DNA of 64,000 nt from Zoroaster sp. YZ-2022 (lineage: Eukaryota > Echinodermata > Asteroidea > Forcipulatida > Zoroasteridae). Shown in pieces: positions 902 to 37,800 of the stretch. The notes beneath the pieces are model-generated. The model made no database searches. It was not told the origin of the DNA and saw only the letters and a list, made by a program, of their open reading frames with translations. Both the position numbers and the translations under genes were made by a program. The stretch is from NCBI GenBank assembly GCA_029582265.1, contig CM055828.1, positions 12,559,777-12,623,776 on the forward strand, read 5' to 3'. The stretch's first letter is position 1. The number at the start of each line of letters is the position of its first letter.

Positions 902-987
902 TCTTTGGTTTTGCAATTTTAACTGGACTCGGCGTTATGATTTACGAATTGTTAAGCTAGGCTTTACGCTAGCGTTAGCCGCTAAGG

Positions 988-2429
988 CTAGAGTTTTTTC
1001 TGTACATAAGTTATAATTAAAACTCCAACCCCGGTTAAAGCTAGCCACAAATGTTCCGCCGTCCACGTGACCACGTTAGAAGCTGTTTTAAATAACCAAC
1101 TTACTATCGATCCGATAATAGCTGGTAAAGCGGTTAAAGCTTGTTTTCCGAGTTTCGCTAATACACTCGCTAGATTTTTTAATGTTTTTTGTATCCACTC
1201 TTTTACACCTCCACTCGGTTCTGGCGTTGGTGGCGCGGGTTTCGGAGGCGAGCGTTCTGGAGGTGTATGTTTAGGAGGCGCGGGTTTGGGTGGCGCGGGT
1301 TTTGGCGGTATAGGTTTGGGTGGCGCGGGTTTTGGCGGTATAGGTTTGGGTGGCGCGGGTTTTGGCGCTGGCGTGGGTTTAGGTAAAACCGAACTTACTA
1401 CAAGGGCGATTGTTTCACCGATTACAGTGAATAGTAAACCGATAACACCGAATAACAAACCAAGCGAAATACCTTGTTCTCTAAATAAAGTTTCAAATTT
1501 TTCTTTAGTCGTAACATCTCTTTCTATCATTTTTCCATTGTTTCATCAATTCTATTAATTTGACTACGAAGAACGCGATCATGCGCATCTATTTGCTTCG
1601 ACAAAACTTGTTTGTCATCTTTTAGTTTTGCAATTCTCGACGATACTTTTCATCAACATTGAGTCCTCTTCCTTCAGCGTCACTAATTATTTCTTCCATA
1701 TCAGAGATTCTTTGGTTTATTGCTTTTAATTTAGTTAAAAGGAATAATTGTTCACCTCGAATTGTAGTCATAATGTCATTGAGCGCTACTACTTCCTGCC
1801 ATGGAATGTTTAATTCCGTTTGAGTATCTTGATCTCTTGAAAGAGTCATAGTTGCCATTTCAATAGCTTCTGCTACTCGTTGCTTCGGTAAAGATGGTAA
1901 CCTTCTACCACGACCTAAAATGACTGGGGTTGTTAGATTGGAATCTAACGCCGATACAGTCGTTGTTTTATCATCAGTTAATGGTCTTTTTGCTTCGTTT
2001 ATAACATTTATTATAGCTTGTTTACTTTTATCAAATATTTCTAAATCATTTAAAGTTAAACCTTTTATACCGCTTAATTTTAAAAATCCACCCGATTTTA
2101 AATTAGTTAATCGTATTTCTGTATTACCTTCTTTTTTTTTAAAGTAAACCCACGTTCTTATTCTTATCAAATTTATAGATAAAGTTATTATAGTCTTTCA
2201 TAACGGGTTCATACCCTATACTTTTATAGAAATCATCGACTATATCTTTACGTAATCTATTTTCTTGAGATAAAGTTGGTGTACTAAAAGACGTTTCTTC
2301 CTCTAGCGGTAGAGCTTGTTCGGTCAATTGAATATTATCGTTGTTGTTTGCGATATCATCTTCAATATATTCATCTTCGAAATTAAAAGCCGGATCCATC
2401 GGTATAAGTTCATTTCTTCCTTGCGCCAT
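988..2429 (-). pseudogene. Polinton coiled-coil and membrane protein, broken by about three frameshifts
   Basis: Read leftward, the likely start is the Met at 2,429 (MAQGRNELIP), leading into an acidic region. The frame shifts near 2,165 into a stretch with RTWVYFKKKEGNTEIRLTN and a helical, coiled-coil-like segment. It shifts again near 1,630 (KQIDAHDRVLRSQINRIDE) and near 1,535 into TLFREQGISLG. A hydrophobic helix follows, then a proline-rich tract of repeated PKPAPPKPIPP units (about 1,230-1,390), then VKEWIQKTLKNLASVLAKLG and C-terminal hydrophobic segments. The copy B relative at 30,448-31,180 shares the FREQG, DWIQKTLKNL and final hydrophobic parts but lacks the proline tract. It could instead be two adjacent genes. 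The function is unknown. Confidence 0.55.
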
Positions 2430-11595: not shown

Positions 11596-13929
11596 ATAGG
11601 CGGATCCAGGATTTTTCAAAAAGGGGGGTCCAACCAGTGGCGTAGCTGTGATTTTTTCCAGGGTGGCAAGTGCTCTCAAAATTTCCGACTTAGGGGGATA
11701 GATCAATAATGCCCCCCTAAAAACTCCTCGGAAACACCACTTATGGTAAGATTTTTCCCTCTGCAACATTATTTTTTCGTAACTATTTTTTTTTTAATGA
11801 AAAACAAATGGTATGGCAGGGACGGATCTAGGAATTTTTACAGGGGGAAAGGGGGAATCAGGCCTTATGTCCCATTGTTGTGGACATATAGGTAATGCAG
11901 CACATTCATAGGCGGATCCTGGATTTTTTTTAATGGGGTCCAACCAGGGACACATATATTTTGTTACAGATGGGATGAATTTCCGTGTGAGTTCCTTCCC
12001 AAAAACAAATCCTGGGTGCGCCAGTGGTCTAGCCCCCCAAAAATATTGGCTCGTACCGCGCCTGCTACCTACAAACCCAACCTTCGATGTTCCCTTGCCT
12101 GCACGAAGCCGAACCCTTAAATATGCCGTCAATGAGTATCTTGCCGGTTATGTGGCAAGGAATACTATCCAGTCGTTGGGGGTATTCCGAGGACTGAGGA
12201 GCTTTAGTCCAGCTCTCAAACGAAATGGGTGCCCTCAATTCAAACTTTCATCTAATTCACCTATAGGTATTCTGCCGGTAACATCCGCATTACTCACGCA
12301 GAGGGGCTGTTTATGAAATCACACTCATGCAGCGCCCTCAGGAAGGTTTTCATGGGTTCTACATTGTCATGGATGGAACGTCTGGCGATGAGAGTTTTCC
12401 TTTTCATAGTGGCTTTAAGACGATGGTTTATAAGAGAAGGGAAAGTTGTTTGAAAACATCCTTCTTTGGTTTTTTTCGACAAATGTTTGACAGACCTTAT
12501 CAAGATTGATGGTCATGTCATGATTAAGATTGAGAAGAGTTAACCCAGCGAGACGATCCTGACCCATTCTGTTGCGAAGGTAGGTCTTCACTCTTCGAAG
12601 GCAGGAAAAAGAACGTTCTGCTTCACAGCTCCCAACAGGCAGAATGCAACCAATTCGAAGGAGAGTGCTAATGTTTGGAAATACATCCTCATCAGCATGC
12701 AGGAGACATTCAAGGAGGCTTGATGGAGGTTGCTTCTCCCTTTCCCATAAGCGTTTCCACTCCTTCACCTCTGCTCTCAATGATGATGGTTGTGGCAGAT
12801 CTGCTTCCCAAAACATCAGCTTTTCCAAAACATTATTCAAATTGGAACTTGCAAAAGCAGATGGGAGAAGATCCAAAATGGCTGCACCCTGTCTGCTCTG
12901 TGGACTGAATCTGCTCCTGAACTCTGCAGAAATATGATCTAGGAATGGTATGGCACAGTTCCTCAGGAAGTACTCTTTTGGACAACTGCTGGGGGCATTA
13001 GGTCTATGGGACTGGTTTCCTGTCCTTGGGGCTCTCGGGGCCAACAGAGTCGATCCGACAAGGTGGGATAAACGGGTGGCATCAGCAAACCATATTTCAA
13101 ACTCCTCCTCTACCTCTTCTCTGAGAGCAGCCACACGATCTACCGTGTCACCGATCATTCGGTACGCATGGAAAATATCTAAATCCCTCTTTTGCAATTT
13201 TAATGAAATGGGTTTGATGGTCTCCATGGCATTTTTTGCAACAATGAAAGACACAAGTGTCTGTGACGATGTCAGGCTGGATAGAAGTCCTTGCGCTTTA
13301 ATCCTCGTCTCCTGGTCCCATCCGCCCACCCAGCTATCCTTGTAGATATCAGGATATGTAGTCGGATATGTACATGTACATGGCCATGCACAGTAATATA
13401 TGTACGCAAACCTGATTGGCCAATAGTAAAATAAAAGTCCGCCAACCAATAGCAACTTAGCTTCCAAAAGTTATCGGGGACGATTGCCATTGCTTTGGTC
13501 TACGACACGACCGGAAGAGCGTTTACATGCGTTGGTCGTACTCTGCGCCCGTACACACTACGCACAAGTTCGATTGTCCCAGTTATTACAATGTATTACA
13601 TGTATTGAGGTTTGCGCACTTTGCGGTAAGCTTTGTACTAGAACGAAACTTTCCCAAAGTCCACAGAGACGCTGTTAGAATTTTGTTTAATGTTTTTTAA
13701 CTTCTTGTGCATGTGCGTGCGTGAGTACTTTATCCGTAGGAGGCCCCCTTAGGTCATGCCTCCCCCCCCCAAAAAAAAAAAAACACACATCGGAAAACAC
13801 CCATAACAAAATCCCCCCACGAATAAAAATAAAAATAAATAATTTTTTTTTTTAATTATAAAACAAACAAAAAAAACGCCAAAAAAGGGGGGCCCGGACC
13901 CCCTGGACCCCCCCCCCTGGATCCGCCTA
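11596..13929 (-). mobile_element. hAT transposon insertion, degraded
   Basis: The ends are inverted: ATAGGCGGATCCAGG at 11,596 and CCTGGATCCGCCTA at 13,929. The flanking 8-mers TCCGTACC and TGCGTACG agree at six of eight positions, as expected for an old hAT target duplication. The left end sequence recurs in the same direction at about 11,908-11,955 (TAGGCGGATCCTGG, then GGGGTCCAACCAGG), so the left side is partly duplicated or holds a second partial insertion. Inside is a transposase relic on the minus strand. A G-rich/C-rich block (13,760-13,925) forms the right end. Confidence 0.8.
12415..13467 (-). pseudogene. hAT transposase C-terminal half
   Basis: Homology-like sequence starts around residue 48 (WVGGWDQETRIKAQGL) and runs to the end. 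It passes EFEIWFADATRLSH and reaches the hAT dimerisation block CEAERSFSCLRRVKTYLRNRMG near residue 290, then LTLLNLNHDM. This resembles the ZMYM/THAP12-type hAT proteins. The N-terminal DNA-binding finger and the first catalytic residues are missing, and the first 45 or so residues look like non-coding DNA read by chance. It cannot be a complete transposase. Confidence 0.8.
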
Positions 13930-21024: not shown

Positions 21025-21058
21025 TATTCTATTAATAATAAAGATTATATTTTTTATT

Positions 21059-21541
21059 TTAAACCAATGGAAAACTTTCAATTTTTATATCGAAACAGAT
21101 TCCCGTATCTCTAGCGCCAAAAACGTTCGCTTGTACAAAGACTTCTTGATCTTCGGTCTTGAAGCAAATTCCACATTCTAAATGCTGCGGTACGGTGCTA
21201 AAAGAAAGTTCTGGATTAAATTCATCGGTAGTGGAAAATATATAAGCTGTGTTGGCTACAAAGTTGCGTTTTGACGTGACTGAATAAAAACCATTTTTAC
21301 CCTTGATTCTTTTGGCAAAAATTGAACAGTATACCGGTTCTATTTCGAGAAAAAAACATGGGTGATGTTTTGCTCCTACCCACTCGAGGTAAATGGGTAG
21401 TCTTCCCATTAAATTTATCAAGGGTATCGTGTGACGAATTTCTCTTGTACCAATACGTCCATGATGTTCATAAATGGACGGATTGTAATTTTTGGATGAA
21501 ATGGGTTTGCTCCTACGACTAGGACCGTAAATACTCGTCAT
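21059..21541 (-). CDS. Polinton B hypothetical protein, tandem copy 1
   Basis: The intact frame starts MTSIYGPSRRSKPISSKNYN; it is 160 residues. It is a clear duplicate of the gene at 21,672-22,130, sharing PSIYEHHGRI, IPLINLMGRL, FAKRIKGKN/E, LECGICFKTEDQEVF and the SFST-like strands. It appears mostly beta-rich with no membrane helix. Between the copies (21,545-21,640) lies a relic of the end of the next gene (GMPAIITVEI region), so the duplicated unit was about 600 bp and included that end. A small structural virion protein is a reasonable guess only. Confidence 0.55.
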   Translation of the reverse strand: MTSIYGPSRRSKPISSKNYNPSIYEHHGRIGTREIRHTIPLINLMGRLPIYLEWVGAKHHPCFFLEIEPVYCSIFAKRIKGKNGFYSVTSKRNFVANTAYIFSTTDEFNPELSFSTVPQHLECGICFKTEDQEVFVQANVFGARDTGICFDIKIESFPLV

Positions 21542-21671
21542 TTATAATAACCATTAAAAAACTATTTATTAATTTCGACGGTTATAATGGCTGGCATACC
21601 GTGATTATTAATGTCTCTGCCGGTCGAATATTTAATTTTAAATCTCAGGACTGAAACTTTAAATTTTTATA

Positions 21672-22130
21672 TCAAAACAGACTCCAAAGCTTAAACTTCC
21701 AAAAAAGGGTCGCTTGTGCAAAGACTTCTTGATCTTCTGTCTTGAAGCAAATTCCACATTCCAGATGCACCGGTGTAAATGGAGTTCTAAGAAAAGAAAG
21801 TTCTGGTTTAACATTGTTAGTGGAGAATGTATAAGCTCGATTAGCTACAAAGTCGCGATTTGACGTGATTGCATGAGATTCATTTTCACCCTTGATTCTT
21901 TTGGCAAAATTTGAACAGTATGTCGGTTCTCTCTCGAGAAAAAACCTTGGTTGACGCGATACGCCATCCCACTCGAGGTGTATGTGTAGTCTTCCCATTA
22001 AATTTATCAACGGTATCGTGTGACCAACTTTATTCGGATCAATACGTCCATGATGTTCATAAATGGACGGATTGTAATTTTTGGATAAAATGGGTTTGCT
22101 CCTACGACTAGGACCGTAAATACTCGCCAT
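21672..22130 (-). CDS. Polinton B hypothetical protein, tandem copy 2
   Basis: The 152-residue frame starts MASIYGPSRRSKPILSKNYN and ends a little differently from copy 1, because the last 15 or so codons diverge (FWKFKLWSLF). The shared blocks are as given for copy 1. The relative in between and the matching non-coding AAACAACTATTTATTAATTTC spacer make this a direct duplication rather than two old paralogues. Confidence 0.55.
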   Translation of the reverse strand: MASIYGPSRRSKPILSKNYNPSIYEHHGRIDPNKVGHTIPLINLMGRLHIHLEWDGVSRQPRFFLEREPTYCSNFAKRIKGENESHAITSNRDFVANRAYTFSTNNVKPELSFLRTPFTPVHLECGICFKTEDQEVFAQATLFWKFKLWSLF

Positions 22131-22150
22131 TTATAATAACCATTAAACAA

Positions 22151-22400
22151 CTATTTATTAATTTCAACGGTTATAATGGCTGGCATACCGTGATTATTAA
22201 TGTCTTTGCCGGTCGAATCTTTAATTTTAAAACTCAATTCGTTTAAAGTGCCACTCTTGAGATTTTTTCGTAATGGATTACAATATTCTATCCAGGCGCT
22301 TTCGCCTAATGATTTATCTTGTAAGGGAAAAACGTTTAAAATACTCTTAAAGCTTGAACAATTTCTTCCGGCGACTTGTCCATTCAAAAGATTTACGTGA
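22151..22400 (-). pseudogene. Polinton conserved gene, C-terminal part only
   Basis: The supported stretch runs from about 22,400 (NLLNGQVAGRNCSSFKS) through NPLRKNLKSGTLNELSFKIK and DSTGKDINNHGMPAIITVEI to the stop at 22,151. The beta-strand end resembles the tails of Polinton minor-capsid-like proteins. Residues further upstream in the open frame are the antisense of the next gene and not believable, so the N-terminal part is lost at a rearrangement near 22,380. Confidence 0.45.
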
Positions 22401-22879
22401 CAGAAAACGAATTTGTACAAGTAGAACTCGCCGATCCTTTTAGCAAGTACAAGTTGCCTCACGTCAATAACGATGAGATTGTAAGTAGCTGGAATTCGTA
22501 TCCGCTAAAGTTTTATCAGAATCAAATGAATTTTGTAACGTGGTGTAGTACGACGGGGTGTGGAGTGAGTTACGACCATTTACTCCATTCGAATCCGATG
22601 ATTAGTAGTTTCTTCAAATTTCACGTCTATTATCAAATTAGACGATTGCTCAAAGAAATGAGCTGTCCCGCATCTTTTCAAAATTTTTGGAGCGCGGTTG
22701 AAAACAATATAGACATTGGCGCGGATAATAAAATATGAAGAGACTTTCACATCTCACCAGTATCGAATTGGAAACAACAAGAAGACAAAAACTCTAGAGC
22801 ATTGGGAATAGCCTATTATTACGACAACGTTTACATTCCGGTACCTGGGAAAGACTACGATAATTCAAGCTTACACGCA
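22376..22879 (+). pseudogene. Polinton conserved gene, first part (split by the 6.77-kb insertion)
   Basis: Starts MSIQKIYVTENEFVQVELAD, with the conserved-looking FYQNQMNFVTWCSTTGCGVS and FFKFHVYYQIRRLL. A TGA at 22,736-22,738 interrupts, but the same frame stays open through LGIAYYYDNVYIPVPGKDYD up to the insertion at 22,879. The reading resumes without shift at 29,646 and stops at 29,745. So a single stop codon plus the insertion inactivate it. I recognise the protein as a frequent Polinton companion of unknown role. Confidence 0.6.
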
Positions 22880-23340
22880 AGTAGAATGTGTGGCGCATCA
22901 CACTACAGTTGTGGCGGTGCAGTGTGCAATTTGTGTGCAGTGATTTTGTGCAGTTTGTAACGGCAAGAACCACATTGCACCACAGTGAAATGGAGCAATG
23001 GGCGACGATTTTGCACTTTGTGGAGGAGGGTGCACTTTGTGGAGGAGGGTGCACTTTGTGGCGGTGGAGCACCATAATTTTTTTTTACTTGGCCACAATT
23101 TTTTTTCTTCTTCCATTTTTTTTTTTATGACGTCATTTCGGCCAAGTAAAAAAAAATTGTGTTACCACTGCTCCACCGCCACAAAGTGCACCCACCACCA
23201 CTACAAAGTGCAAAATCGTCGCCCATTGTTCCATTTCACTGTGGTGCAATGTGGTTCTTGCCGTTACAAACTGCACAAAATCACTGCAGACAAATTGCAC
23301 ACTGCACCGCCACAAACTGTACTGTGATGCTCCACACATG
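22880..23340. repeat. Terminal palindrome of the left arm
   Basis: The first 460 bases fold on themselves: 22,886-23,105 and 23,127-23,339 are inverted copies (GTGCAGTGTGCAATTTG, AACGGCAAGAACCACATTG, CAAAGTGCAC blocks). TGACGTCA sits at the centre near 23,128. The right arm has the same structure at 29,200-29,645. Confidence 0.8.
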
Positions 23341-23400
23341 ATTGAAATTTTTCATGATTGAATTTTTTTTTTCAATTTCTTTTTTTTTTTTTTTCAACCA

Positions 23401-23690
23401 CAATTTTACCACTGCACACAACTGCACACAAAATACTGCACACAACTGTACACAAAATACTGCACACAACTGCGCACTACTCCCTCCACACAAACTGCAC
23501 ACAAAATACTCCACACAAACTGCACACAAAATACTGCACACAACTGCGCACTACTCCCTCCACACAAACTGCACACAAAATACTGCACACAAAATACTGC
23601 ACACAACTGTACACAAAATACTGCACACAACTGCACACTACTCCCTCCACACAAACTGCACACAAAATTAAAGGTGGAGGTGTGCAGTTT
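23401..23690. repeat. Tandem ACTGCACACAAAAT array (left arm)
   Basis: Mixed units of 14-22 bases built from ACTGCACACAA, CTGTACACAAAATA and ACTCCCTCCACACAA repeat many times. The mirrored array in the right arm is 28,800-29,125 and is longer by a few units. Cysteine-rich frames read from it are artefacts of the repeat. Confidence 0.9.
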
Positions 23691-24800
23691 GTGTGGTGGA
23701 GGGAGTAGTGCGCAAGCGCAGCATGCATATTGATGATTTCGGGCAAGTTGAGACATAATGACACAAAAATATAAACACAAAAGAACACATTCAACTCTTT
23801 TATTATTTTTTTATTCACTTTTTTTTTTAAATTCACGTAACAATGAATGGATTACCGATACAAATCACTATATAAAAGAAAACTCAAAAATTATTATAAC
23901 TCAAAGTATTAATAATTCCCAAGAAAAATGCACATTAAACAAGAATCCCTATATAAAAACAATGTAAATCAAATATCTATTGGACTTAGCTTGTCAATTT
24001 TGTACACGTTATATGGTAATTTTGGGGAGAGGAAATGATGAGGGATGTATAGGACTAGGGAAATCAATAGATAGTCAAGTGAATTATAAGGAATATAACA
24101 TAATTAAATACTCCCTCCACACAAACTGCACACAAAATACTGCACACAACTGCGCACTACTCCCTCCACACAAATTGCACACAAAATTAAAGGTGGAGGT
24201 GTGCAGTTTATGTGGTGGAGGGAGTAGTGCGCATGCGCAGCATGCATATTGATGATTTCGGGTAAGTTGAGACACGTCATAGCAAACTATTACCGTTTTT
24301 ATATATTTGTCAATGAATTTAAAGGTGGAGGTGTGCAGTTTGTGTGGTGGAGGGAGTAATGCGCAAGCGCAGCATGCATATTGATGATTTTGGGCAAGTT
24401 GAGACATAATGACACAAAAATATAAACACAAAAGAACACATTCAACTCTTGTTATTTATTTTTTATTCACTTTTTTTTTTAATTCACGTAACAATGAATG
24501 GATTACCGATACAAATCACTATATAAAAGAAAACTCAAAAATTATTATAACTCAAAGTATTAATAATTCCCAAGAAAAATGCACATTAAACAAGAATCCC
24601 TATATAAAAACAATGTAAATCAAATATCTATTGGACTTAGCTTGTCAATTTTGTACACGTTATATGGTGATTTTGGGGAGAGGAAATGATGAGGGATGTA
24701 TAGGACTAGGGAAATCAATAGATAGTCAAGTGAATTATAAGGAATATAACAGAATTAAAAGAAAGTCAACTCACACTGAATTTTACAGGGATTAAGAGTC
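23691..24800. repeat. Tandem duplication within the left arm
   Basis: A block beginning CGCAGCATGCATATTGATGA and continuing through the ATAATGACACAAAAATATAA, GATTACCGATACAAATCAC and ATAGATAGTCAAGTG stretches occurs at 23,715-24,105 and again at 24,367-24,755. Both copies are mirrored in the right arm (28,770-28,365 and 28,100-27,710). Confidence 0.85.
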
Positions 24801-25084
24801 TACACTCCTTGCAATAAATGTAACACGATAGATTTACACATCTCACTCGTTCATACCGAGCACATGGGACGAAGTGTTTTGGATTATATTTCCGCTTCAA
24901 TGAACTGCTCAGGAACTTGGAATTTCGTTGCGTGTACTGTCAACGAAACCGTAAATGAAGTCGGATATTAGGGCTCATAATACAGTTGTCTAACTTACAT
25001 GAAACAACGGCCCGCTTTAGAATGTCAGGCCTGTAGTTCACAATACACTGTCTATTTAAAGATGAATAGAAAGTCACCCAGAAG

Positions 25085-26460
25085 TTTAGAACCCATGCTC
25101 ATTTTGCTGCTCATTTGCTCATTTCGAGAACCCATGCAGAGGCACTCATTTTCTTCGAAATTAAGTTGTCACTGCCCTTGATGTAACGTAATAGTGTAAA
25201 ATAACCATAAAGGATTACTGTAAGACTAACAGAGGTTGTTATTTTATAGATTTTTTTATTCCTACCAAAAAACACTATTATAGATGTTTTTTATTTTTTT
25301 ATTACAGTAGTCTTTCTGAAACATCTGGTCTTTCATTATCACTCTTCCTCGTTCTCTTCATCCTCATTTAGTTGAAGTAGTAGTCCGTCAAATTTGGTAT
25401 GGTGTTTAGGCATTACTCTGTTCAGAGCTTTGTTTACTTCCATGCCTTTATTTACTTTTTCTTCGAGATCTTCCGCAATATCCTGATGAGTCCCATTATC
25501 TTTTCAGATGTAGGTAACTTGACAAAAAATCCTTGTATTTGTTGAAAAAGATTCGCTTGACTGCCCAAAGGGTTTTCCTATTTGCTCATTTTGCTGCTCA
25601 TTTTGCTGCTCATTTGCTCATTTCGCTGCTCATTTGCTCATTTCGCTGCTCATTTGCTCATTTGCTGATTTGCTCATTTTGCTGCTCATTTGCTCATTTC
25701 GAGAACCCATGCAGAGGCACTCATTTTCTTCGAAATTAAGTTGTCACTGGAAGACTAAGATTTCGAGGAAGATGATTCAGAATCCGATACGGAGGTGGAA
25801 TATGACGAATCATCGGAAGAGCATGAGTCTAGTTCTGAACTGGAAGACAATGCCACTTTTCGAGACTGGTTGGAAGAGGCTAAAGTGGCTACTGAAGAGA
25901 TGTGGTGTGAAAAATATGAAAAGTACGTCAACGGGGGTATGAGTGAAGATCAAGCCAAGGAAAAAGCCAATAGGAAAACCCTTTGGGCAGTCAAGCGAAT
26001 TTTTTTCAACAAATAGAAGGATTTTTTTGTCAAGTTACCTACATCTGAAAGATAATGGGACTCATCAGGATATTGCGGAAGATCTCGAAGAAAAAGTAAA
26101 TAAAGGCATGGAAGTAAACAAAGCTCTGAACAGAGTAATGCCTAAACACCATACCAAATTTGACGGACTACTACTTCAACTAAATGAGGATGAAGAGAAC
26201 GAGGATGAAGAGAACGAGGAAGAGTGATAATGAAAGACCAGATGTTTCAGAAAGACTACTGTAATTAAAAAAAAAACATCTATAATAGTGTTTTTTGGTA
26301 GGAATAAAAAAATCTATAAAATAACCACCTCTGTTAGTCTTACAGTAATCCTTTATGGTTATTTTACACTATTACGTTACATCAAGGGCAGTGACAACTT
26401 AATTTCGAAGAAAATGAGTGCCTCTGCATGGGTTCTCGAAATGAGCAAATGAGCAGCAAA
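25085..26460. repeat. Inner inverted repeat of the central region
   Basis: 25,090-25,580 and 25,969-26,455 are inverted copies covering the 3' end of the zinc finger gene, its downstream AATAAAAAAATC stretch and the CATGCAGAGGCACTC block. The spacer between them holds a (TTTGCTCAT)n array and the middle of the gene. A third, direct copy of GAACCCATGCAGAGGCACTC lies at 25,703. Confidence 0.85.
25741..26227 (+). pseudogene. C-terminal half of the element's zinc finger gene
   Basis: The frame reads DESSEEHESSSELEDNATFR and DWLEEAKVATEEMWCEKYEK, then GMSEDQAKEKANRKTLWAVK. A shift near 26,010 leads to HLKDNGTHQDIAEDLEEK and ALNRVMPKHHTKFDGLL, ending in an acidic tail at 26,227. The first 50 codons duplicate the end of the N-terminal half at 27,290-27,407. 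An inverted copy of its end lies at 25,585-25,340 on minus. No enzyme motif; charged helical protein. Confidence 0.6.
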
Positions 26461-26695
26461 ATGAGCAAATGAGCAAATGAGCAGGCAAATGAGCAGCGAA
26501 ATGAGCAAATGAGCAGCAAAATGAGCAGCGAAATGAGCAAATGAGCAGCAAAATGAGCAAATGAGCAAATGAGCAGCGAAATGAGCAAATGAGCAAATGA
26601 GCAGCGAAATGAGCAAATGAGCAAATGAGCAGCGAAATGAGCAAATGAGCAAATGAGCAGCGAAATGAGCAAATGAGCAGCGAAATGAGTAGTTA
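26400..26695. repeat. ATGAGCAAATGAGCAGCGAA minisatellite
   Basis: Units of 9 and 11 bases (GCAAATGA, GCAGCGAAATGA) repeat about 25 times just upstream of the zinc finger gene. An inverted, shorter version lies at 25,580-25,700. Leucine/serine/phenylalanine-rich frames on it are artefacts. As it directly precedes the gene start region it could be promoter-proximal. Confidence 0.9.
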
Positions 26696-26761
26696 TAGGC
26701 CTATATATAAACTATTTCTTCCGTTTCTTGTCAATCGGAGATTAAGCATCAGAGATTCAAC

Positions 26762-27409
26762 ATGAATGTTATTTCTACTGTCAAACCCCATGCTTGTCAC
26801 CAGTGCGGCAAAAGCTTTGGACGGAGATATAACCTACGGAGGCATGCAGAACATGTACATAATGAAGAGAAATCTAAAATGGATGAAGTTGACGATGATT
26901 CTGAAATTAAAGCTATCCAATCTGACAATTCTGACATCGATAATTCTGAACCCGATGTTAAAAAGCGTAGATTTGAAGATTCGGAAATAGAAACTTGTGA
27001 AACTGAATCTACGCAGGATGAAGACGAAGATTTCGAGGAAGATGATTCAGAATCCGATACGGATAACCTACGGAGGCATGCAGAACATGTACATAATGAA
27101 GAGAAATCTAAAATGGATGAAGTTGACGATGATTCTGAAATTAAAGCTATCCAATCTGACAATTCTGACATCGATAATTCTGAACCCGATGTTAAAAAGC
27201 GTAGATTTGAAGGTTCGGAAATAGAAACTTGTGAAACTGAATCTACGCAGGATGAAGACGAAGATTTCGAGGAAGATGATTCAGAATCCGATACGGAGGT
27301 GGAATATGACGAATCATCGGAAGAGGATGAGTCTAGTTCTGAACTGGAAGACAATGCCACTTTTCGAGACTGGTTGGAAGAGGCTAAAGTGGCTACTGAA
27401 GAGATGTGA
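26762..27409 (+). CDS. C2H2 zinc finger protein of the large-TIR element (N-terminal half)
   Basis: The frame starts MNVISTVKPHACHQCGKSFG and contains one classical finger (C-x2-C, then RRYNLRRHAEHVH) at residues 12-33. A long acidic region rich in Asp, Glu and Ser follows. A 234-bp segment (26,829-27,062) is repeated directly after itself, so NLRRHAEHVHNEEKSKMDEV and the acidic block occur twice, without the finger's Cys pair in the second. It ends ATEEM, where the copy at 25,741 continues into a further conserved region. Thus the protein is truncated by the inverted arm at 27,416. It likely binds DNA; a role in the element's own mobility or expression is conjecture. Confidence 0.65.
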   Translation: MNVISTVKPHACHQCGKSFGRRYNLRRHAEHVHNEEKSKMDEVDDDSEIKAIQSDNSDIDNSEPDVKKRRFEDSEIETCETESTQDEDEDFEEDDSESDTDNLRRHAEHVHNEEKSKMDEVDDDSEIKAIQSDNSDIDNSEPDVKKRRFEGSEIETCETESTQDEDEDFEEDDSESDTEVEYDESSEEDESSSELEDNATFRDWLEEAKVATEEM

Positions 27410-27415
27410 TGTGGT

Positions 27416-29645
27416 GTGACTTTCTATTCATCTTTAAATAGACAGTGTATTGTGAACTACAGGCCTGACATTCTAAAGCGGGCCGTTGTTTCATGTAAGT
27501 TAGACAACTGTATTATGAGCCCTAATATCCGACTTCATTTACGGTTTCGTTGACAGTACACGCAACGAAATTCCAAGTTCCTGAGCAGTTCATTGAAGCG
27601 GAAATATAATCCAAAACACTTCGTCCCATGTGCTCGGTATGAACGAGTGAGATTGCAAGGAGTGTAGACTCTTAATCCCTGTAAAATTCAGTGTGAGTTG
27701 ACTTTCTTTTAATTCTGTTATATTCCTTATAATTCACTTGACTATCTATTGATTTCCCTAGTCCTATACATCCCTCATCATTTCCTCTCCCCAAAATCAC
27801 CATATAACGTGTACAAAATTGACAAGCTAAGTCCAATAGATATTTGATTTACATTGTTTTTATATAGGGATTCTTGTTTAATGTGCATTTTTCTTGGGAA
27901 TTATTAATACTTTGAGTTATAATAATTTTTGAGTTTTCTTTTATATAGTGATTTGTATCGGTAATCCATTCATTGTTACGTGAATTTAAAAAAAAAAGTG
28001 AATAAAAAATAAATAAAAAGAGTTGAATGTGTTCTTTTGTGTTTATATTTTTGTGTCATTATGTCTCAACTTGCCCAAAATCATCAATATGCATGCTGCG
28101 CTTGCGCACTACTCCCGCCACCACACAAACTGCACACCTCCACCTTTAAATTCATTGACAAATATATAAAAACGGTAATAGTTTGCTATGACGTGTCTCA
28201 ACTTACCCGAAATCATCAATATGCATGCTGCGCATGCGCACTACTCCCTCCACCACATAAACTGCACACCTCCACCTTTAATTTTGTGTGCAATTTGTGT
28301 GGAGGGAGTAGTGCGCAGTTGTGTGCAGTATTTTGTGTGCAGTTTGTGTGGAGGGAGTATTTAATTATGTTATATTCCTTATAATTCACTTGACTATCTA
28401 TTGATTTCCCTAGTCCTATACATCCCTCATCATTTCCTCTCCCCAAAATTACCATATAACGTGTACAAAATTGACAAGCTAAGTCCAATAGATATTTGAT
28501 TTACATTGTTTTTATATAGGGATTCTTGTTTAATGTGCATTTTTCTTGGGAATTATTAATACTTTGAGTTATAATAATTTTGAGTTTTCTTTATATATAG
28601 TGATTTGTATCGGTAATCCATTCATTGTTACGTGAATTTAAAAAAAAAAGTGAATAAAAAAATAATAAAAGAGTTGAATGTGTTCTTTTGTGTTTATATT
28701 TTTGTGTCATTATGTCTCAACTTGCCCGAAATCATCAATATGCATGCTGCGCTTGCGCACTACTCCCTCCACCACACAAACTGCACACCTCCACCTTTAA
28801 TTTTGTGTGCAGTTTGTGTGGAGGGAGTAGTGTGCAGTTGTGTGCAGTATTTTGTGTACAGTTGTGTGCAGTATTTTGTGTGCAGTATTTTGTGTGCAGT
28901 TTGTGTGGAGGGAGTAGTGCGCAGTTGTGTGCAGTATTTTGTGTGCAGTTTGTGTGGAGTATTTTGTGTGCAGTTTGTGTGGAGGGAGTAGTGCGCAGTT
29001 GTGTGCAGTATTTTGTGTGCAGTATTTTGTGTGCAGTTTGTGTGGAGGGAGTAGTGCGCAGTTGTGTGCAGTATTTTGTGTACAGTTGTGTGCAGTATTT
29101 TGTGTGCAGTTGTGTGCAGTGGTAAAATTGTGGTTGAAAAAAATAAATTAAAAAAAATAAAAATTGAAAAAAAAAATTCAATCATGAAAAATTTCAATCA
29201 TGTGTGGAGCATCACAGTACAGTTTGTGGCGGTGCAGTGTGCAATTTGTCTGCAGTGATTTTGTGCAGTTTGTAACGGCAAGAACCACATTGCACCACAG
29301 TGAAATGGAGCAATGGGTGACGATTTTGCACTTTGTAGTGGTGGTGGGTGCATTTTGTGGCGGTGGAGCAGTGGTAACACAATTTTTTTTTACTTGGCAG
29401 AAATGACGTCATAAAAAAATTTAAAAAATGGAAGAAGAAAAAAAATTGTGGCCAAGTAAAAAAAGATTATGGTGCTCCACCGCCACAAAGTGCACCCTCC
29501 TCCACAAAGTGCAAAATCGTCGCCCATTGCTCCATTTCACTGTGGTGCAATGTGGTTCTTGCCGTTACAAACTGCATAAAATCACTGCACACAAATTGCA
29601 CACTGCACCGCCACAACTGTAGTGTGATGCGCCACACATACTACT
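27416..29645. repeat. Right inverted arm of the large-TIR element
   Basis: This is the reverse complement of 22,880-25,077 throughout, starting GTGACTTTCTATTCATC. It lacks a 29-base stretch found in the left arm near 24,815-24,850 and has more units in the 28,800-29,125 array. These differences argue that the arms are separate real sequences. Confidence 0.85.
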
Positions 29646-29747
29646 CACGCATACTCTAGAGAGAATGATTATTCAGACGCGACAAAGATGGGCTTTGGAG
29701 ATCATCTCTCGACGTATACAGTCGCCTACATTTCACAATCTCCCTAG
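29646..29747 (+). pseudogene. Polinton conserved gene, last part after the insertion
   Basis: The frame that entered the insertion at 22,879 continues from the duplicated CACGCA at 29,646: YSRENDYSDATKMGFGDHLS, then TVAYISQSP and TAG at 29,745. Counting only one copy of the 6-bp duplication keeps the frame, which proves the insertion came after the gene. Confidence 0.65.
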
Positions 29748-29790
29748 ACTGAGCGAGCTTGGGTTAAATTTATAGGCTACTTACGTCGGG

Positions 29791-30395
29791 ATTGGCTCAA
29801 GGCTTTACGGATATAGGTATAGAACGAATCAATGACTCTATAGAACGTACGTTTACGCCGTGCTAGGAGCTCAAGCTCAAGCTAAAACTGGAATTCTCGT
29901 ACCGGGTATCGGTTTAGATGCAAAAAGAGAATTCTTAAACATTCTCGATGCTTCGATCGATTCTCCGGTTGATTTGCAATCTTCTATTCAGAGGTACCAA
30001 GATTCTTTACAATACGCTCGATCGCAGTTAAACTTTGTCATCGGAGAAGATTTGTACCTTATTCCCTCCGACATGAATTTGGGTATAGGTACGTACGTGG
30101 GTACAACAACAATATTTTGGTCGTAACGCCGGGTCTATTGCTCGGATCGAATCTAGACACAAATTCAACGCCCGTTCCCCCTCCGTCACCATCAATCGAT
30201 TCTCAACCACCGCCGTCATCTATCGATACTCAGCAACTGTCATAGGCCTATAACGATACGCCATCCATCGTTTCCACTACCGATTTACCACTATCCGTCG
30301 ATACTCAGCAACCACCATCCATTGTTCCATCCGTCGAAACTCAACTCGACTCACCACTATCTATCAATACTCACCAAGAGGAAAAAATTCTCTAA
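29791..30395 (+). pseudogene. Polinton conserved hypothetical protein (relative of 312-901), frameshifted
   Basis: A first frame holds GFTDIGIERINDSIERTFTP (to 29,859). A second begins GAQAQAKTGILVPGIGLDAK and follows the copy A gene closely through SQLNFVIGEDLYLIPSDMN. A one-base loss near 30,105 relative to copy A shifts it. The remainder is Pro/Ser-rich and ends HQEEKIL at 30,395. This copy shows the N-terminal part that copy A lost. Confidence 0.6.
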
Positions 30396-30447
30396 TATTT
30401 GGTCTCGCGATTGCTTTTGTGCTAGGCGTGGCTATTTACGAGTTTAT

Positions 30448-31180
30448 TCAACGTTGACCCTGTAGATAAGATAAAACAATGACTCCGACTCCACTCACAA
30501 GTAGCCATACATGTGTCGCCAACCATCCTACCGCTCCCGAAAGATGCGTCAATAACCAACTGAATACTCCGCCGATGATACCCGGTAGAGAATCCAAGGC
30601 TTTTAATCCAAGTTTCTTTACTAGATTCGATAGATTTTTGAGAGTTTTTTGTATCCAGTCTTTTACGGTACCGCCACTTGGAGTTGGAATCGGTTTTACG
30701 CTCGCTACGATCGAAGCGACGATGGTACTAATCGCCGCCAATATACTGACTATCGTTACGCCTTGTTCTCTAAATAAAGTTTTAATCTTTTCAGCTAGAC
30801 CCGTATCTGATCTTAATATTTTTCTTATCGTTTCTTTGATTCTAGTTATTTGGCTTTTTAGAGATTGATTATTTTCATGTACTAAAGTTTGACGGGCTTC
30901 ACGTTGGTCGTTTAATTCTTGTAATTTATTTCTTGCTTTTTGTCGTTCTTCGTCGCTAGTAGCCTCGTCTAATTCAGTCCTGGTTTGAATAATCTCATCA
31001 TCTATTTTTCTAAGTTCTGCTAATTTAATTCTAGACTACCAGCAAGAGTCTGAAGTTTCTTATCTAAAGCAGCTAGCTCTCTATAATTTAACCCTTCGGT
31101 TTGCGCAATTCAATCAATCAATTTGGTTCCACATTAGCATATTCGTCTAATATAGTGGCTAAAGCCAGTGACTTTAAAAT
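30448..31180 (-). pseudogene. Polinton coiled-coil and membrane protein (relative of 988-2,429), truncated
   Basis: Read leftward from about 31,180: LKSLALATILDEYANVEP, a break, ELAALDKKLQTLAGSLEL, then a long coiled-coil-like stretch (DEERQKARNKLQELNDQREA, NQSLKSQITRIKETIRKI). TLFREQGVTIVSILAAIS and VKDWIQKTLKNLSNLVKKL follow, with hydrophobic segments at the end. It lacks the proline repeat of copy A. Its start is lost to the LINE at about 31,180. Two small breaks lie near 31,020 and 31,110. Confidence 0.55.
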
Positions 31181-32652
31181 TGTTTTCGCTTCATCATTTT
31201 TTCAATAACCTGGTTCTCATCTTTCAAGCTGTGCTTATTCTTTTGCTTATTTATTACCTGCCTGTAGGTATTTTCTGTGATGCCTGATTTGTGATATATG
31301 CTGTCTTTGTCGTAAGTGAGCTGTTTAATGAAACGAGCATCTTCTTGCCGACATACATGAGCGACCCAGTTGTATTGTTGGCCTCTGATAAAGTCTTCAT
31401 TGTCTGAGATCCCGCAGATTCTCTTAATATCTTCATTTTTGTATCTGTATTTACAAAACTCACCCTCAGAACCATCCGCCCTTTTGTAAGAATTCACATT
31501 TTTCTCCCTCTGGTGGCCTCCTTTCACTAATGATCTCAATAACAATGTAAACGCCGACTCTAGCTTGTCAAAATGCCTTTGAGTGGGGCACCATGCCTGG
31601 CAACCGTATTTCATGACTGATCGGACCATTGCTTTGAAAAACTGAACTCGGGATTTCAGTTTTATCTTGTAATTGGTGTATAATTTTTTAAGCTCATAGA
31701 ACTTGCAGGTGCCTGCGGTTATTCGTTTCTCGATTTCAACATCGCCGGTGGCACAGTCATTGTACATAATTGTCGACCCTAGATATTTGAAGGTGGCCGA
31801 GTTCTTGATTTCTACGCCATTTAGTGATGTTATTGAAGATGGATACTGTTTGTCGCCTAGGGAGTCTTTTGTTCCAAGTAGTTCCCAGTTTAAAATGAGG
31901 GTTTCGGTTTTAGTTTCATTTATTTTCAGGCCATGGGCTGTGAAAATTCGCTCGATAATTATTAGCATCTCCTGGAGGTCTTCTGCTGACTGAGCGTAGA
32001 TGACCAGATCATCAGCGTACCCCAGGTAGGGTATAAGACTAAAACCTTTGTTGTTTTCTTGGAATTTTTGGACGAGCAATTTTTGGGAATTTCATAGTAT
32101 AATTCAAACCCTGTCAAATTTCGATCTTGGCATTCTTGCTGGAACAAGCGCATACAGTGGTTGGCATAAATATTATACAGGCATGGACTTTCCGAACCGC
32201 CCTGCCGTACTCCACTGGTGGTCTTAAATCTCGCTTGCTCATCACTCGCCATATAGCACTCAGTCTGTGAATACATTGACTCAAGTAAATCAACCAAAAT
32301 CGAATCCCCAAAAGCTAACCTAGCACTCCTAAACAATAAATCTCTCCTAATATGATAAAATGCTGCTGATAAATCGATCATCCCAACAAATAATTCCCTT
32401 TGATATTTTCTAGCCCATTTTTGTGTCTGCTTCAGGCAATAAATTCCGTCTATGGTACCCCGATTCGGTCTAAACCCGTATTGCCTCTCATCTAAATAGC
32501 TGTCGTAAGCTGGGGTTAACCTTTGGACCACAATAGACACAAATATTTTTGTTAGGATTGACGATAAAGTTATTCCTTGGTATTTGGTACAATCTAGCAT
32601 TGATCCTTTATTCTTGAAAATTGCGTTGATCTTCCCTAAACCAAAATATGCT
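31174..32652 (-). pseudogene. LINE reverse transcriptase, 3' part
   Basis: From the LTR boundary at 32,652 leftward the frame has KINAIFKNKGSMLDCTKYQG, then DERQYGFRPNRGTIDGI, ELFVGMIDLSAAF and VRQGGSESPCLYNIYAN. A shift near 32,060 leads to PYLGYADDLVIYAQ (catalytic YADD) and a long thumb/C-terminal region ending at 31,174. There is no endonuclease domain here because the 5' part was displaced by the LTR element and is not found on its far side. The RT clade is not assigned. It differs from the fragment at 1-311 and from the one at 63.2 kb. Confidence 0.85.
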
Positions 32653-32653
32653 A

Positions 32654-34221
32654 TGTTACGATCCGAAAATCTTCAAACTATAGGTGAATGCAAATTATTC
32701 AAAAAGCCTGAATTTTCTCAGATGCAACAAAGAAATCAAGCAAGGTCACACTGATATAAAGAACACAGAAACAAAGTGATTTAATAATGAAAATATCAAC
32801 CGCTTCAAATATCAATGGGTTTAACAAGCGTACAATGATTAGGGTAAACAAGTGTACATTAAAAAAAAGATCTTATACTAAATAAGAAGAAGATCTTATG
32901 GCCCTGTCACACTGTTGCGTATCGTACTAGCGTATGCCAGCGTATGAAAATTATCACTCATACGCTGGTATACGGTGACATACGCTAGGGGTACGTTAGG
33001 CATAGGTTGTATACGTTTCAAGCACGGTGGCATACGCTGGCATACGCTGGCATACGCTGAGGCAGAAATAAATGTTTAAGCATGCTTAAAATTTGTGTGC
33101 GTATGCGGACGTATGGTTAATACGCTAAGCATACGCTAGGCATACGCTGAATACGCTAGAGGTACGATATAGGTACGTTACTCATAGGTCGAGTACGCTG
33201 GACATAAGTTGCCATACGTTGGCATGAAGGTGTACCGTACAGCTAGCGTATTGATAGCGCATTGAAAGGCCGCCGATTATATAGGTACTTTGTCACGTGA
33301 TAGGCGGATAGGCGGTACGCTGGGCATGCGCAGTTCATACGCTACTCATACGCTAGCCATACGCAGAGTACGCTGTCCATACGCTGGTCATACGCTGTTC
33401 ATACGCTGACATACGCTGGTCGTACGCTGACATTTGCTGACATTCGCTGTCCATACGCTGTCAATACGCTTGCCATACGCTACTCATACGCTACTCATAG
33501 GTTCAATACGGTAAGTATACGCACAATTCTGTATTTTCAAGGGCTTTTTGTGCGTATGAAAATTATATTATGAATTTTCATACGCAACTCTTACGTTTCT
33601 CTCATACGCAACAGTGTGACAGGGCCATTACGGGCGAGGACTGACACCAAAAACAGTTCTCTGACACGGTGTAAATAGAGCTAAACGCGGGGCGAATTCA
33701 CCTCCAACAAACGGCCGGAAATAGACGAAACCACGGGGACACAAGTCGCCTGACTACCGTGACAAAAATATGGGAAAGACGAAATCCCAAAAATACTGAA
33801 CTGTAGATTTAGTTCACAAAATGTCTCTTCCGGAATTAAATTCAGCTCTCAGACACTTCACTCGGTCAACACGAACTTTCTCAAATCACTCCACTGACGA
33901 GTCGTAAGCGACATCACAGGTCCTAGTGGGTGTACACTGAAGTCTCATCAACTCCTGTTTACCGAAGTCTTGGTTTGCTCAAGTCCTGTTTAAAATCCTC
34001 TACCAGCCCGTATTTATAGTTGTTAATCCCTTCTAGAAAATACTAAAGGTTTCTTCTTCACTTCACTTGTAGAAATTTCTGTTAAATTACATCATTGTCC
34101 AAAAATAAACTTCCAGAACGTTCTATTCATAACCCGCAAACATAATCCCGCCGCCTTATGGGGTCAACACGTGGTCACGCACGGATTATCTCACACTTGC
34201 GGTTTGCGTGTATATGTAACA
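32654..34221 (-). repeat. 3' LTR of the Gmr1-like element (with MITE insertion)
   Basis: Bounded by TGTTACGATCC at 32,654 and GTAACA at 34,221, the inverted TGTTAC/GTAACA pair expected of LTR ends. Its first 240 bases match 39,192-39,405. Without the MITE (32,899-33,627) it would be about 840 bp. Next to it TCTCCCCCA (34,222-34,230) is the polypurine tract read on the other strand. Confidence 0.85.
32899..33627. mobile_element. Harbinger-like MITE built of CATACGC repeats
   Basis: The inverted ends TGGCCCTGTCACACTGTTGC are near-perfect for about 24 bases and are flanked by TTA (32,896-32,898 and 33,628-33,630), the PIF/Harbinger-type duplication. The inside is dominated by CATACGCT and its complement AGCGTATG in both orientations, dozens of times. 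It lies within the LTR. There is no coding sequence. Confidence 0.85.
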
Positions 34222-34425: not shown

Positions 34426-35730
34426 CTAAACTCTGAACAGAGCATCAGCAATAACATTGCTCTTTCCGGCAATATGAACAATCTTGAGTGGATAGGGTTG
34501 CAAAATCAAACTCCACCGAAATAATCTTTGGTTCTTGGTCTTGAATTTCTCCAAAAACACAAGTGGGTTATGATCAGTATAAATGATCGTCTCTCCAGCA
34601 CCATTGGTTATATACACTTCAAAGTGTTGTAGGGCAAGGACCAGACCTAACGCCTCTTTTTCGATGGTGGAGTATTTTGCCTGCTATTTATTCAGTTTCT
34701 TTGAGAAGTAACTAATCGGTCGCTCGATGCCTGACTCATCTTCTTGGAGCAAAACCGCTCCGACACCAACATCACTGGCGTCAATGGCTATTTTGAACGC
34801 CTTGTCAAACTTTGGCGCAGCCAGAACCGGTTCGTTCGTTAAAATGGCTTTCAATTGCTCAAATGCATTTTGGCATGAGTCAGACCAAACAAACTTCACA
34901 TTTTTCTGTAAAAGTTTAGTCAATGGAGTCGCAATAGTGCTGAAGTTTGGAACAAACTTTCTGTAAAATCCACTCATACCCAGGAATCTCATCAATTCTC
35001 TCTTCCCTAGCCTGTGGGTACGGGAACATCTTGAATGGCTTGAATCTTTGCTACTCGTGGAAGCACGTGACCTTGACCGACCACATGACCTAAGTAGGTC
35101 ACTGTTGCTTTGGCAAACTCACTCTTTTTGAGATTTACCACCAGGTTTGCTTTTGAGAGCTTATCAAACAGGGCACTCAAGTGTTTCAGATGGTCTTCCC
35201 AGCTATCGCTGTATACCAAAATGTCATCAATATAGACAACACAATTTTCTAGCCCAGCAATGACTTGACTCATCATTCTCTGAAACGTAGCCGGGGCATT
35301 TTTCATCCAAAAAGGGCATCGTTTTACATTGGTACAGACCATCAGGTGTCACAAACGCCGAAATTTCTTTGGCTCGGTCAGTCAAGGGCACTTGCCAATA
35401 TCCCTTTAACAAGTCTACTTTACTGACAAATGCAGAATTTCCCACCCGATCAATGCAGTATTCTAACCTAGGGATAGGATATGAATCAGTCTTAGTTTCT
35501 GCATTGACTTTTCGATATAATCTATACAAAATCTAAGAGTACCGTCAGGCTTTGGTACCATGACAATGGGAGAACTCCAAGAACTCTGACTAGGTTCTAT
35601 AATGTCATGCTCTATCATGAACTTAACCTCTTCCCGAACCTTCGATAATTTGTTAGGATTAAGTCGGTAGGGTGCCTGTTTTATCGGCCTTGAATTTCCT
35701 ACATCAACATCATGAACTTCCACCGACGTA
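34426..35730 (-). pseudogene. Gmr1-like reverse transcriptase and RNase H
   Basis: Read leftward: APYRLNPNKLSKVREEVKFM and SSPIVMVPKPDGTLRFCIDY (RT start), then KVDLLKGYWQVPL, then the catalytic block CVVYIDDILVYSDSWEDHLK (YIDD), then FLGMSGFYRKFVPNFSTIAT. RNase H follows with FKIAIDASDVGVGAVLLQED and IIYTDHNPLVFLEKF, ending VHIAGKSNVIADAL near 34,435. The frame changes near 35,520, 35,340, 35,000 and 34,650, so it is dead. The motifs are Ty3/gypsy in style. Confidence 0.88.
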
Positions 35731-35939
35731 CGACCCGGTTTGTCAGAACAAATTTGCTCGTACTTTTGGAGTAGGTTTGATAAATCTGTCCGTTGGTCAT
35801 TGTGCAAATGGCCAAGGATTTCATCCAAGTTAGCCAGAATTTCAGAATTTGAAAGCTGCACAGCGAAAAACTCAAGTTCAGACGTTTTTGTCTCAAGGTC
35901 TTCATTACATGAATTGTCATCGTCGGGTTTTAACTCAAT

Positions 35940-37010
35940 AACAGCTACCCCCACTGGTTGACCAAAATTATCACGCTCATAATATTTCTTGAGCATGTTA
36001 ACATTACAAACTCTCTGGCTCTTTCTTCGGTCTGGGGTGCTGATTACGTAATTAACATCATTGAGTTTCTTTTGGATACAGTAGGGCCCACTAAACTTCG
36101 CTTTAAGGGGCTCGCCAGGCAGAGGCAACAGTACTAGTACTTTCTCGCCGGGTTTAAAGATGCGGACCTCAGATTTCTTGTCTGCTCTTGTCTTCATGAC
36201 CCGTTGAGACACCTTGAGATGTTCTTGTGCCACAGAACACGCCTTGGATAACCCCTCTTTGAAGTTCGACACATAGTCGAGCAGATTGGTCTCATCCTCC
36301 TCTGCCAAAAATCTCTCCTTAATTAGTTTCAAAGGCCCCCTCACCTCATGACCGTAGACCAACTCAAATGGAGTAAAACCAGTTGACTCGTTCGGTGAGT
36401 CCCTAGTGGCAAACAACAGAAAGGGAATTCCTTTGTCCCAATCTTCTGGAAAAACCTCACAGTATGCTCTTATCATATTCTTGAGGGTTTGGTGGTACCT
36501 CTCCAGAGCTCTGAGACTGCGTGTGATATGCAGATGATTTCAACTGCTTCATCCCCAGCTCACGCAGGACTTCCTGAAACACACCCGACATGAAGTTAGA
36601 CCCCTGATCGGACTGCACTTCTTTCGGTAAACCATATCTTGTGAAAAACTGCATAAGAGCCTCAACAACAACTTTGGCTGTTATCTTCCTCAGTGGAATG
36701 GCCTCTGGAAATCTGGTTGACAAATCCATGATGGTCAACAAAAACTGATGCCCGGACTTCGTCCGCGGTAGAGGACCAACACAATCCACTAGGACTCTTG
36801 TAAATGGCTCATCAAATGCAGGAATCGGTATCATCGGTGCAGGCTTGATTGATGGCTGTGGTTTCCCCACCATCTGACACGTATGGCACGAATTTCACCA
36901 CATCTTGGTGTAGCTTAGGCCAATAAAAATGTGCCATGACTCTAGCTTGAGTCTTTCTGATGCCAAGATGACATGCAACCGGAATCTCGTGAGCAATTCT
37001 CAAGATCTCA
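35940..37010 (-). pseudogene. Gmr1-like integrase, upstream of RT
   Basis: The zinc-binding start is AHEIPVACHLGIRKTQARVM near 36,985-36,930, the HHCC arrangement. The core has FTRVLVDCVGPLPRTKSGHQ (first Asp) and PKEVQSDQGSNFM (second Asp). The glutamate block is split by a shift near 36,470. The C-terminal part includes NESTGFTPFELVYGHEVRGP and a GPY/F-like module, KFSGPYCIQKKLNDVNYVIS. The same frame then runs on into RT, which shows the INT-RT order directly. Confidence 0.88.
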
Positions 37011-37429
37011 TCACGGTAACACGGAGGTATAACAATTTGATGGACAATACTCCATTCTTCATCAGCTGGTCTCTGGGTAGGTCTCCATTTCCTCATTAAC
37101 ACGCCCGACTTGACGTAGAAGCATTCTGGAACCCCCTGAGCCTCTTCCTCAGAACACGCTGTCTGGGCGAGCTTCCTCAAATCTGGGTCCGCTTTCTGCT
37201 TCTCTATCAGCGAGGATCGGCTAAATTTAGCATCTTGAGACACTCCCTCATTTTCTTCAAAATTATTGAAAAAAGTTTCAGCCAGCCAAACACCAGAGTC
37301 CTCCTCTATAGGCACTGACTCTGCAACCTCCTTTTCCGTCTGTTTCATCTGAGATCTTGTCACTGCACATTCGGGGAAGATTTCTGGAAACTCCTCCTCC
37401 AAAGAATGAAGTTCTGGCTCATCCACAGG

Positions 37430-37800
37430 TTCACCAGAGACAATAGGGGATGCCGACACTTTACCTCCCGCAACGTCATTACCTAGCAGAAATCCGACAC
37501 CTTTCATCGGTAGACTAGGAACAACTCCAACATCCACAGGGCCAGTGATCAATTCACATTTAAAATTCACCCTATGCAACGGGACAGGCATAAAATTACC
37601 CCCAATACCTTGAATCAACATTTTTCGCATTCAGCGAACTTTCTGGAGACAATGACAACACATCCTCCAGCATCAGTGACTGTGACGGGCCTGTATCCCT
37701 TAGGATAACAACTGAACTGCCGGCTTCATCAGACGCACACGAAACATCACCACGATAAACAAAATCTTTGTAGACCTCATCAACTTGGTTGATTTCATCA
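37430..37800 (-). pseudogene. Gmr1-like aspartic protease
   Basis: The active-site triad appears as SSVVILRDTGPSQSLML near 37,720, and the second conserved block as PMKGVGFLLGNDVAGG near 37,480. A frame change lies between them near 37,610. It sits between the gag zinc knuckle and integrase, as expected for processing of the polyprotein. Confidence 0.75.

Follow-up and report, generated by a model that had tools for sequence, protein, structure and literature searches.

Polintons, also called Mavericks, are described as large self-synthesizing elements or endogenous viruses, and miniature inverted-repeat transposable elements (MITEs) and foldback elements are non-autonomous, present in high copy number and built of inverted repeats. 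Protein-primed fold-back replication is known from linear viruses, whose defective or satellite genomes are palindromic, end-derived molecules that need a helper. PMC8097293 gives (AGT)2//(ACT)2 as the common end among vertebrate Mavericks; intact ones carry 6-bp target-site duplications (TSDs) and are 12.7–24.6 kb long, and terminal inverted repeats (TIRs) range from 46 to 1,447 bp. Non-autonomous relatives of Polintons have been considered in print before: the Tlr elements of Tetrahymena were once proposed as such derivatives, although PMC4028283 itself disputes this, citing their own capsid gene and ancient divergence. Here we describe a 6,766 bp element at positions 22880..29645 of a 64,000-nucleotide stretch of the Zoroaster sp. 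YZ-2022 genome (the window; G000:C13:12559777-12623776 of a 1.0-Gb genome in 616 contigs). We read it, with a probability of about 0.82, as one copy of a high-copy, gene-bearing, palindromic and non-autonomous Polinton family, that is, as a dependent element or satellite.

The element lies between two perfect copies of the 6-bp TSD CACGCA (22874..22879 and 29646..29651), and its ends are AGTAGAATGTGTGG and, on the other strand, AGTAGTATGTGTGG. The left tip is AGTAGAATGTGTGGCGCATC and the right tip, as its reverse complement, is AGTAGTATGTGTGGCGCATC; the left one begins AGTAGA, one base off (AGT)2, and the right one is exact. Two inverted arms, at 22880..25077 (2,198 bp, element positions 1-2198) and 27416..29645 (2,230 bp, element positions 6766-4537), are 94.0% identical with gaps counted and 99% without. 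The arms contain terminal modules (22886..23339 on the left, 29200..29639 on the right), the left one being nearly palindromic in its own right and related to solo elements of 467-477 bp, and between the arms is a second inverted pair at 25096..25586 and 25965..26467 (element 2217-2707/3588-3086; 95% identical). None of these features is assigned a strand. An earlier interpretation made from the letters of the window (the sequence-only reading) had placed the element at the same coordinates and had reported the CACGCA duplication, the AGTAG ends and arms of about 2.2 kb, all of which is borne out. Its description as almost wholly palindromic is right as to the palindrome but slightly overstates the extent, as mirror symmetry accounts for 72% of the element and some inverted match covers 86%.

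Among open reading frames (ORFs) of at least 95 amino acids, judged by eye (Pfam profiles being applied only to the zinc-finger pieces of the window), we recognized no rve integrase ORF, PolB gene or capsid gene in this element or in its relatives L033, L035-L039, L042 and L044, and in the window element no ATPase or protease gene either. By its ends and TSD the element belongs to a non-autonomous Polinton family, and with no machinery of its own recognized it is not an autonomous Polinton. The likeness to Polintons/Mavericks lies in the AGTAGT..ACTACT ends, the 6-bp TSD and the long TIRs. There are several differences: first, copies read here measure 0.47-8.4 kb and so fall below the intact lengths in PMC8097293; second, the 2.2-kb arms exceed the TIRs given there; and third, there is a zinc-finger gene that was not recognized in the Polintons read in this genome. 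Tlr elements differ in having a capsid gene (PMC4028283), where none was recognized in this family. Another DNA-transposon superfamily might be considered, such as Ginger1/Ginger2, whose wider group has a related integrase-type transposase; however, the TGTNR ends and 4-5-bp duplications given for them in PMC2836005 are contradicted by the AGTAGT ends and 6-bp duplications found here, and we give this assignment next to no credence.

The first 401 bases of the element, used as a query, gave 89 matches from the best 40 of 686 candidates, and 20 loci were examined: the window, 18 chosen among the best matches, and the L051-L053 locus. At all 13 loci where both tips were found the element is flanked by perfect 6-bp duplications, as had been predicted, and these differ from one another: CACGCA, ACTGTC, AATATA, TATGAG, AATGCC, CAGGGT, AATGGC, ATGCTC, GACAGT, AAGGCA, AGCATT, AATTGT (from a 15.1-kb element discussed below) and ATTAAT. 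The other seven (L034, L043, L046-L050) lack two clean tips in the sequence examined and are not evaluable. Members that lack the zinc-finger gene are likewise flanked by 6-bp duplications. The family resembles MITEs and foldback elements in being non-autonomous, numerous and built of inverted repeats, and in its solo members, but most satellite members read are kilobases long and have a conserved gene; only the solo elements L041 and L045 are both short and non-coding, whereas the zinc-finger gene is present in the window element and in L051.

The 18-base end pattern AGTAGTATRTGTGSMGCA occurs at 517 exact places genome-wide (258 forward and 259 reverse), and its reversed control at none. Among the first 100 of these places, all on C1, neighboring tips less than 25 kb apart form 26 convergent pairs, spanning 440 bp to 23.1 kb, no divergent pairs and two same-strand pairs.

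Long inverted repeats pose difficulties for sequencing, and the arms could in principle be an assembly artefact arising from foldback reads or misassembly. Bearing on this is L046 (C13:12253400-12263399), about 0.32 Mb from the window locus, which repeats both the host sequence and the insertion, at the corresponding site. It does not enter the counts as a separate insertion. Compared with window positions 21867-31584, its flanks and center differ by 6-8%, its left arm by 13% and its right arm by 25%, and nearly all of the arm change falls on the L046 branch, a concentration in the arms that would suit an artefact. L046 is a duplicate that has either decayed or been poorly polished in the assembly. 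If it is the latter, and from nanopore-type reads, PMC7229812 describes a loss of accuracy of such reads in inverted duplicates, and the arms would in that case have been present in a molecule that was actually sequenced. Moreover, the palindrome is not peculiar to this locus but recurs at many, with arm lengths and duplications that differ between them. An artefact is thus very improbable, and misassembly was set aside; a single decayed Polinton was set aside as well.

Arm comparisons concern how the palindromes are maintained. For the 560-bp ends of 10 elements, the closest relative is the end's own partner in 15 of 20 cases (chance expectation 1 in 19 each). In a tree of the longer arms, those of L035, L036, L038 and L042 pair within their element, and each arm of the window element groups with the corresponding arm of L046, left or right. 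Likeness within elements is expected where arms are copied from each other, by replication or conversion, and, as the analogy of linear viruses suggests, may reflect fold-back synthesis in a protein-primed system; a recent origin of each palindrome would yield the same pattern.

The ends match not only the published Maverick end motif but also integrase-bearing Polinton-type elements of the same genome, as the sequence-only reading had anticipated in calling them Polinton signatures. The clearest case is a degraded 15.1-kb element (C14:886705-901816) that has the same tips, a 6-bp duplication (AATTGT) and TIRs of about 0.93 kb at 93% identity. It contains pieces of an integrase with rve and chromodomain, a WW protein, reverse-transcriptase-like ORFs (recognized by eye) and a protein that we take to be a minor capsid protein; the latter has 464 homologues, none of the 120 listed bearing an informative name, and it found no match in solved structures and no relative in an IMG/VR scan. 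The terminal 568 bp of the 15.1-kb element match both ends of the window element at 83-87%. More generally, of 34 places on C1 that match its integrase (35 rows listed), 17 lie within 16 kb of a tip, where random placement gives an expectation of 0.72 and a maximum of 4 in 1,000 draws. Six of the 34 are enclosed by a convergent pair of tips spaced 10.5-22.1 kb, and in these the upstream tip is 5.3-6.5 kb away from where the match is listed as starting. Integrases 53-71% identical are also found, by eye, near DNA_pol_B_2 matches (e.g. C1:11.15, C2:43.05 and C4:52.77 Mb).

Another tip-bounded element, of 15.9 kb (C1:70.0 Mb), contains a 213-aa ORF that joins WW and PC4 domains (L069 249-890, + strand). 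A protease-like ORF in a 5-kb piece of the same element has no Pfam match and a weak similarity (E=0.097) to the S273R protease.

Satellite and Polinton-type sequences are also intermingled. In the L051 element, positions 747-946 (91.5%) and 945-1387 (82%) match the 15.1-kb element, so that Polinton-type noncoding pieces are present in satellite arms. At a locus on C10 the zinc-finger gene lies 3.8 kb from an integrase, in sequence 97-100% identical to the 15.1-kb element, about 1.3 kb of which is absent. The arrangement suggested that the gene might be a resident of a Polinton, a possibility set aside on comparing the left junction with the uninterrupted site: the Polinton-type match runs to ...GAAGCTACACA and is followed by AGTAGTATGTATGCAGC, whereas the 15.1-kb element continues without interruption. 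This junction shows a satellite nested in a relative of the 15.1-kb element. Satellites are thus found within Polinton-type sequence at least twice, at C10 and in the window, which is unsurprising in itself since Polintons are common in this genome. Among the few Polinton copies read, none carries the zinc-finger gene as a resident, and of roughly 150 listed places of the gene, judged by eye, only two are less than 10 kb from a listed integrase, the C10 locus and C4:39237791 (9.3 kb).

The gene itself is the only one recognized in the family. Intact copies encode 258-291 residues, comprising a single C2H2 finger, an acidic linker and a C-terminal region that is conserved. In the window it is present in two parts on the forward strand: a 5′ part with an internal duplication, cut short (26762..27409), and a 3′ part in two frames that is displaced upstream of it (25759..26227). 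The statement that the element carries only a C2H2 zinc finger protein therefore holds insofar as no other gene was recognized, but the window copy is scrambled and some members have no copy. The finger of the window protein scores 20.9 bits (E=0.00047), under the Pfam cut-off of 25.2, and a metagenomic relative, P0001, passes it at 26.3 bits. The C-terminal domain has no Pfam match, and a profile search of solved structures matched the finger only, among 60 of the 290 rows.

Genome-wide, 282 matches to the gene were obtained from the best 150 of 1,949 candidates, and most of those listed have no internal stops. Thirteen loci, chosen partly for divergence, were read: seven run through the C-terminal domain (two of them reaching the sequence edge), five are cut short, and one has no ORF. 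Two subfamilies were distinguished, A (L051, L061-L063) and B (L055, L057, L060). Across the 12 A-versus-B pairs, synonymous divergence (dS) is 0.11-0.15 and nonsynonymous divergence (dN) 0.036-0.053, with dN/dS about 0.25-0.43, which marks the gene as constrained between subfamilies; Fisher tests gave p=0.0004 for L060/L061 and p=0.017 for L051/L060, though the pairs share history and so are not independent. Relatives of the protein number 53 among 68 metagenomic candidates, which suggests that the gene is not confined to one species, and the six invariant columns of a 38-member alignment all fall within the C-terminal region. None was found in an IMG/VR scan or by tblastn in phages.

These observations bear on two other accounts of the family. 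The first is that its members are ordinary internal-deletion derivatives of Polintons, like MITEs or foldback elements, in which the zinc-finger gene is a passenger without a role in their spread. The gene-less L033, L041 and L045, the scrambled window copy and the Polinton noncoding pieces within the arms are all in keeping with this; the many intact copies, the dN/dS between subfamilies, the C-terminal domain conserved in metagenomic relatives and the lack of a resident copy among the few Polintons read speak against it, and we regard it as unlikely, while taking it seriously. The second is that the C-terminal domain is an unrecognized recombinase that makes the transposon self-mobile, the likeness to Polinton ends being secondary. 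That no other gene is recognized, and that this domain matches no Pfam family, would fit, but tips, TSD length and a 0.57-kb terminus are held in common with integrase-bearing elements not seen with the gene, and 6-bp duplications also flank gene-less members; self-mobility is accordingly quite improbable.

For the preferred reading, a dependent Polinton satellite, we propose the following. The palindrome would be built from a terminal repeat and adjoining Polinton-type noncoding DNA, with the Polinton ends kept. Judging from ends and TSDs, mobilization would be in trans, with the Polinton integrase inserting the satellites and the Polinton protein-primed polymerase presumably copying them, while fold-back (panhandle) synthesis or conversion would make the palindrome and keep its arms similar. 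The zinc-finger protein may bind terminal or tandem-repeat DNA, or regulate expression, to the benefit of the satellite. The interpretation put forward by the sequence-only reading is thus supported by the TSDs, the tips and the recurrent palindromes, and it is the dependence and the role of the protein that we infer. A broader proposal is that a widespread class of animal satellites parasitizes Polintons. They would replicate as palindromic panhandles on the protein-primed machinery of the Polinton, be inserted by its integrase (occasionally within Polinton genes), perhaps spread inside its capsids, and use a selected zinc-finger gene to steer helper machinery or expression in their own favor. 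This is a tentative proposal that we consider possible but somewhat doubtful.

Several observations weigh against the preferred reading. First, the window gene is broken, its 3′ part preceding its 5′ part and in two frames, and the gene is absent from L033 and from the 0.47-kb solo forms L041 and L045 (467-477 bp). L033 (G000:C4:22221423-22229869) is an 8.4-kb member with a 6-bp duplication in which no zinc-finger ORF was found; three of its pieces match the left portion of the 15.1-kb element at 88-98%. Second, six of the nine within-subfamily pairs show ratios of 0.5-0.9 on few changes and the three that include L051 show lower ratios, so that changes within subfamilies, few in number, look little constrained. 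Third, convergent pairs of the exact motif enclose only 3 of the 15 listed C1 places of the gene, so that most listed copies presumably have variant or decayed tips. Fourth, PolB was not found in the degraded 15.1-kb element, and none of the elements read combines integrase and PolB with exactly these tips. Finally, 5 of the 20 ends are not closest to their own partner.

The sequence-only reading knew of no well-described class of this kind, and we found none among the papers listed by searches of the open PMC subset, with Repbase, Dfam and most subscription journals outside that scope. The analogy to satellite genomes of protein-primed linear viruses lies in palindromic, end-derived and helper-dependent molecules, whereas the present elements are inserted in chromosomes, are flanked by TSDs and have their own gene. 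If the family is indeed high-copy, gene-bearing and dependent, then the Polinton machinery is exploitable in an animal genome, hundreds of integration events would become available for reading end and target rules, and the family would allow a test of whether protein-primed fold-back replication leaves palindromes in chromosomes. If the satellites are in addition parasitic, they would be the transposon-world counterpart of helper-dependent satellite viruses.

The insertion lies in a degraded host gene, the left flank of which (22358..22738, + strand) is of the same gene type in L046. The right flank contains host gene pieces at 29836..31035 (no single strand; ORFs 29836-30126, +, and 30448-31035, -) that are homologous to pieces near window 266-1542. 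An in-frame TGA ends the left ORF, beyond which the same frame continues as far as the insertion. On the other side, about 30 codons of the right flank are open in the register expected when the element and one duplication copy (6,772 bp) are discounted. The contention that dropping one duplication copy restores the frame of a Polinton gene is therefore consistent as to register, although the host gene was already degraded, with an in-frame stop upstream. That the host is a Polinton is weakly suggested by the Capsid_N similarity of another host ORF (E=0.012, below cut-off), by its 1,215 homologues (of which the 120 listed all lack informative names) and by motifs that we presume to be those of Polintons; window ORFs tentatively taken for PolB gave no match to a polymerase profile.

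Related host-element pieces are found at both ends of the region (320-640 and 29866-30185, 76% identical), and an ORF is duplicated in tandem (21049-21647 and 21628-22236, 84%), so that the region seems to contain more than one Polinton-type copy. Elsewhere in the window, all on the reverse strand, are a 555-aa open frame with no Pfam match at E 0.001 (49498-51165), a 576-aa open frame with a DDE_Tnp_1_7 domain (9432-11162; E=3.3e-77), which we take to be piggyBac-like, a hAT transposase piece from the dimerization region (12415-13470), a reverse transcriptase piece in two frames (31174-32672) and a retroelement integrase piece with an H2C2 domain (35463-37630).

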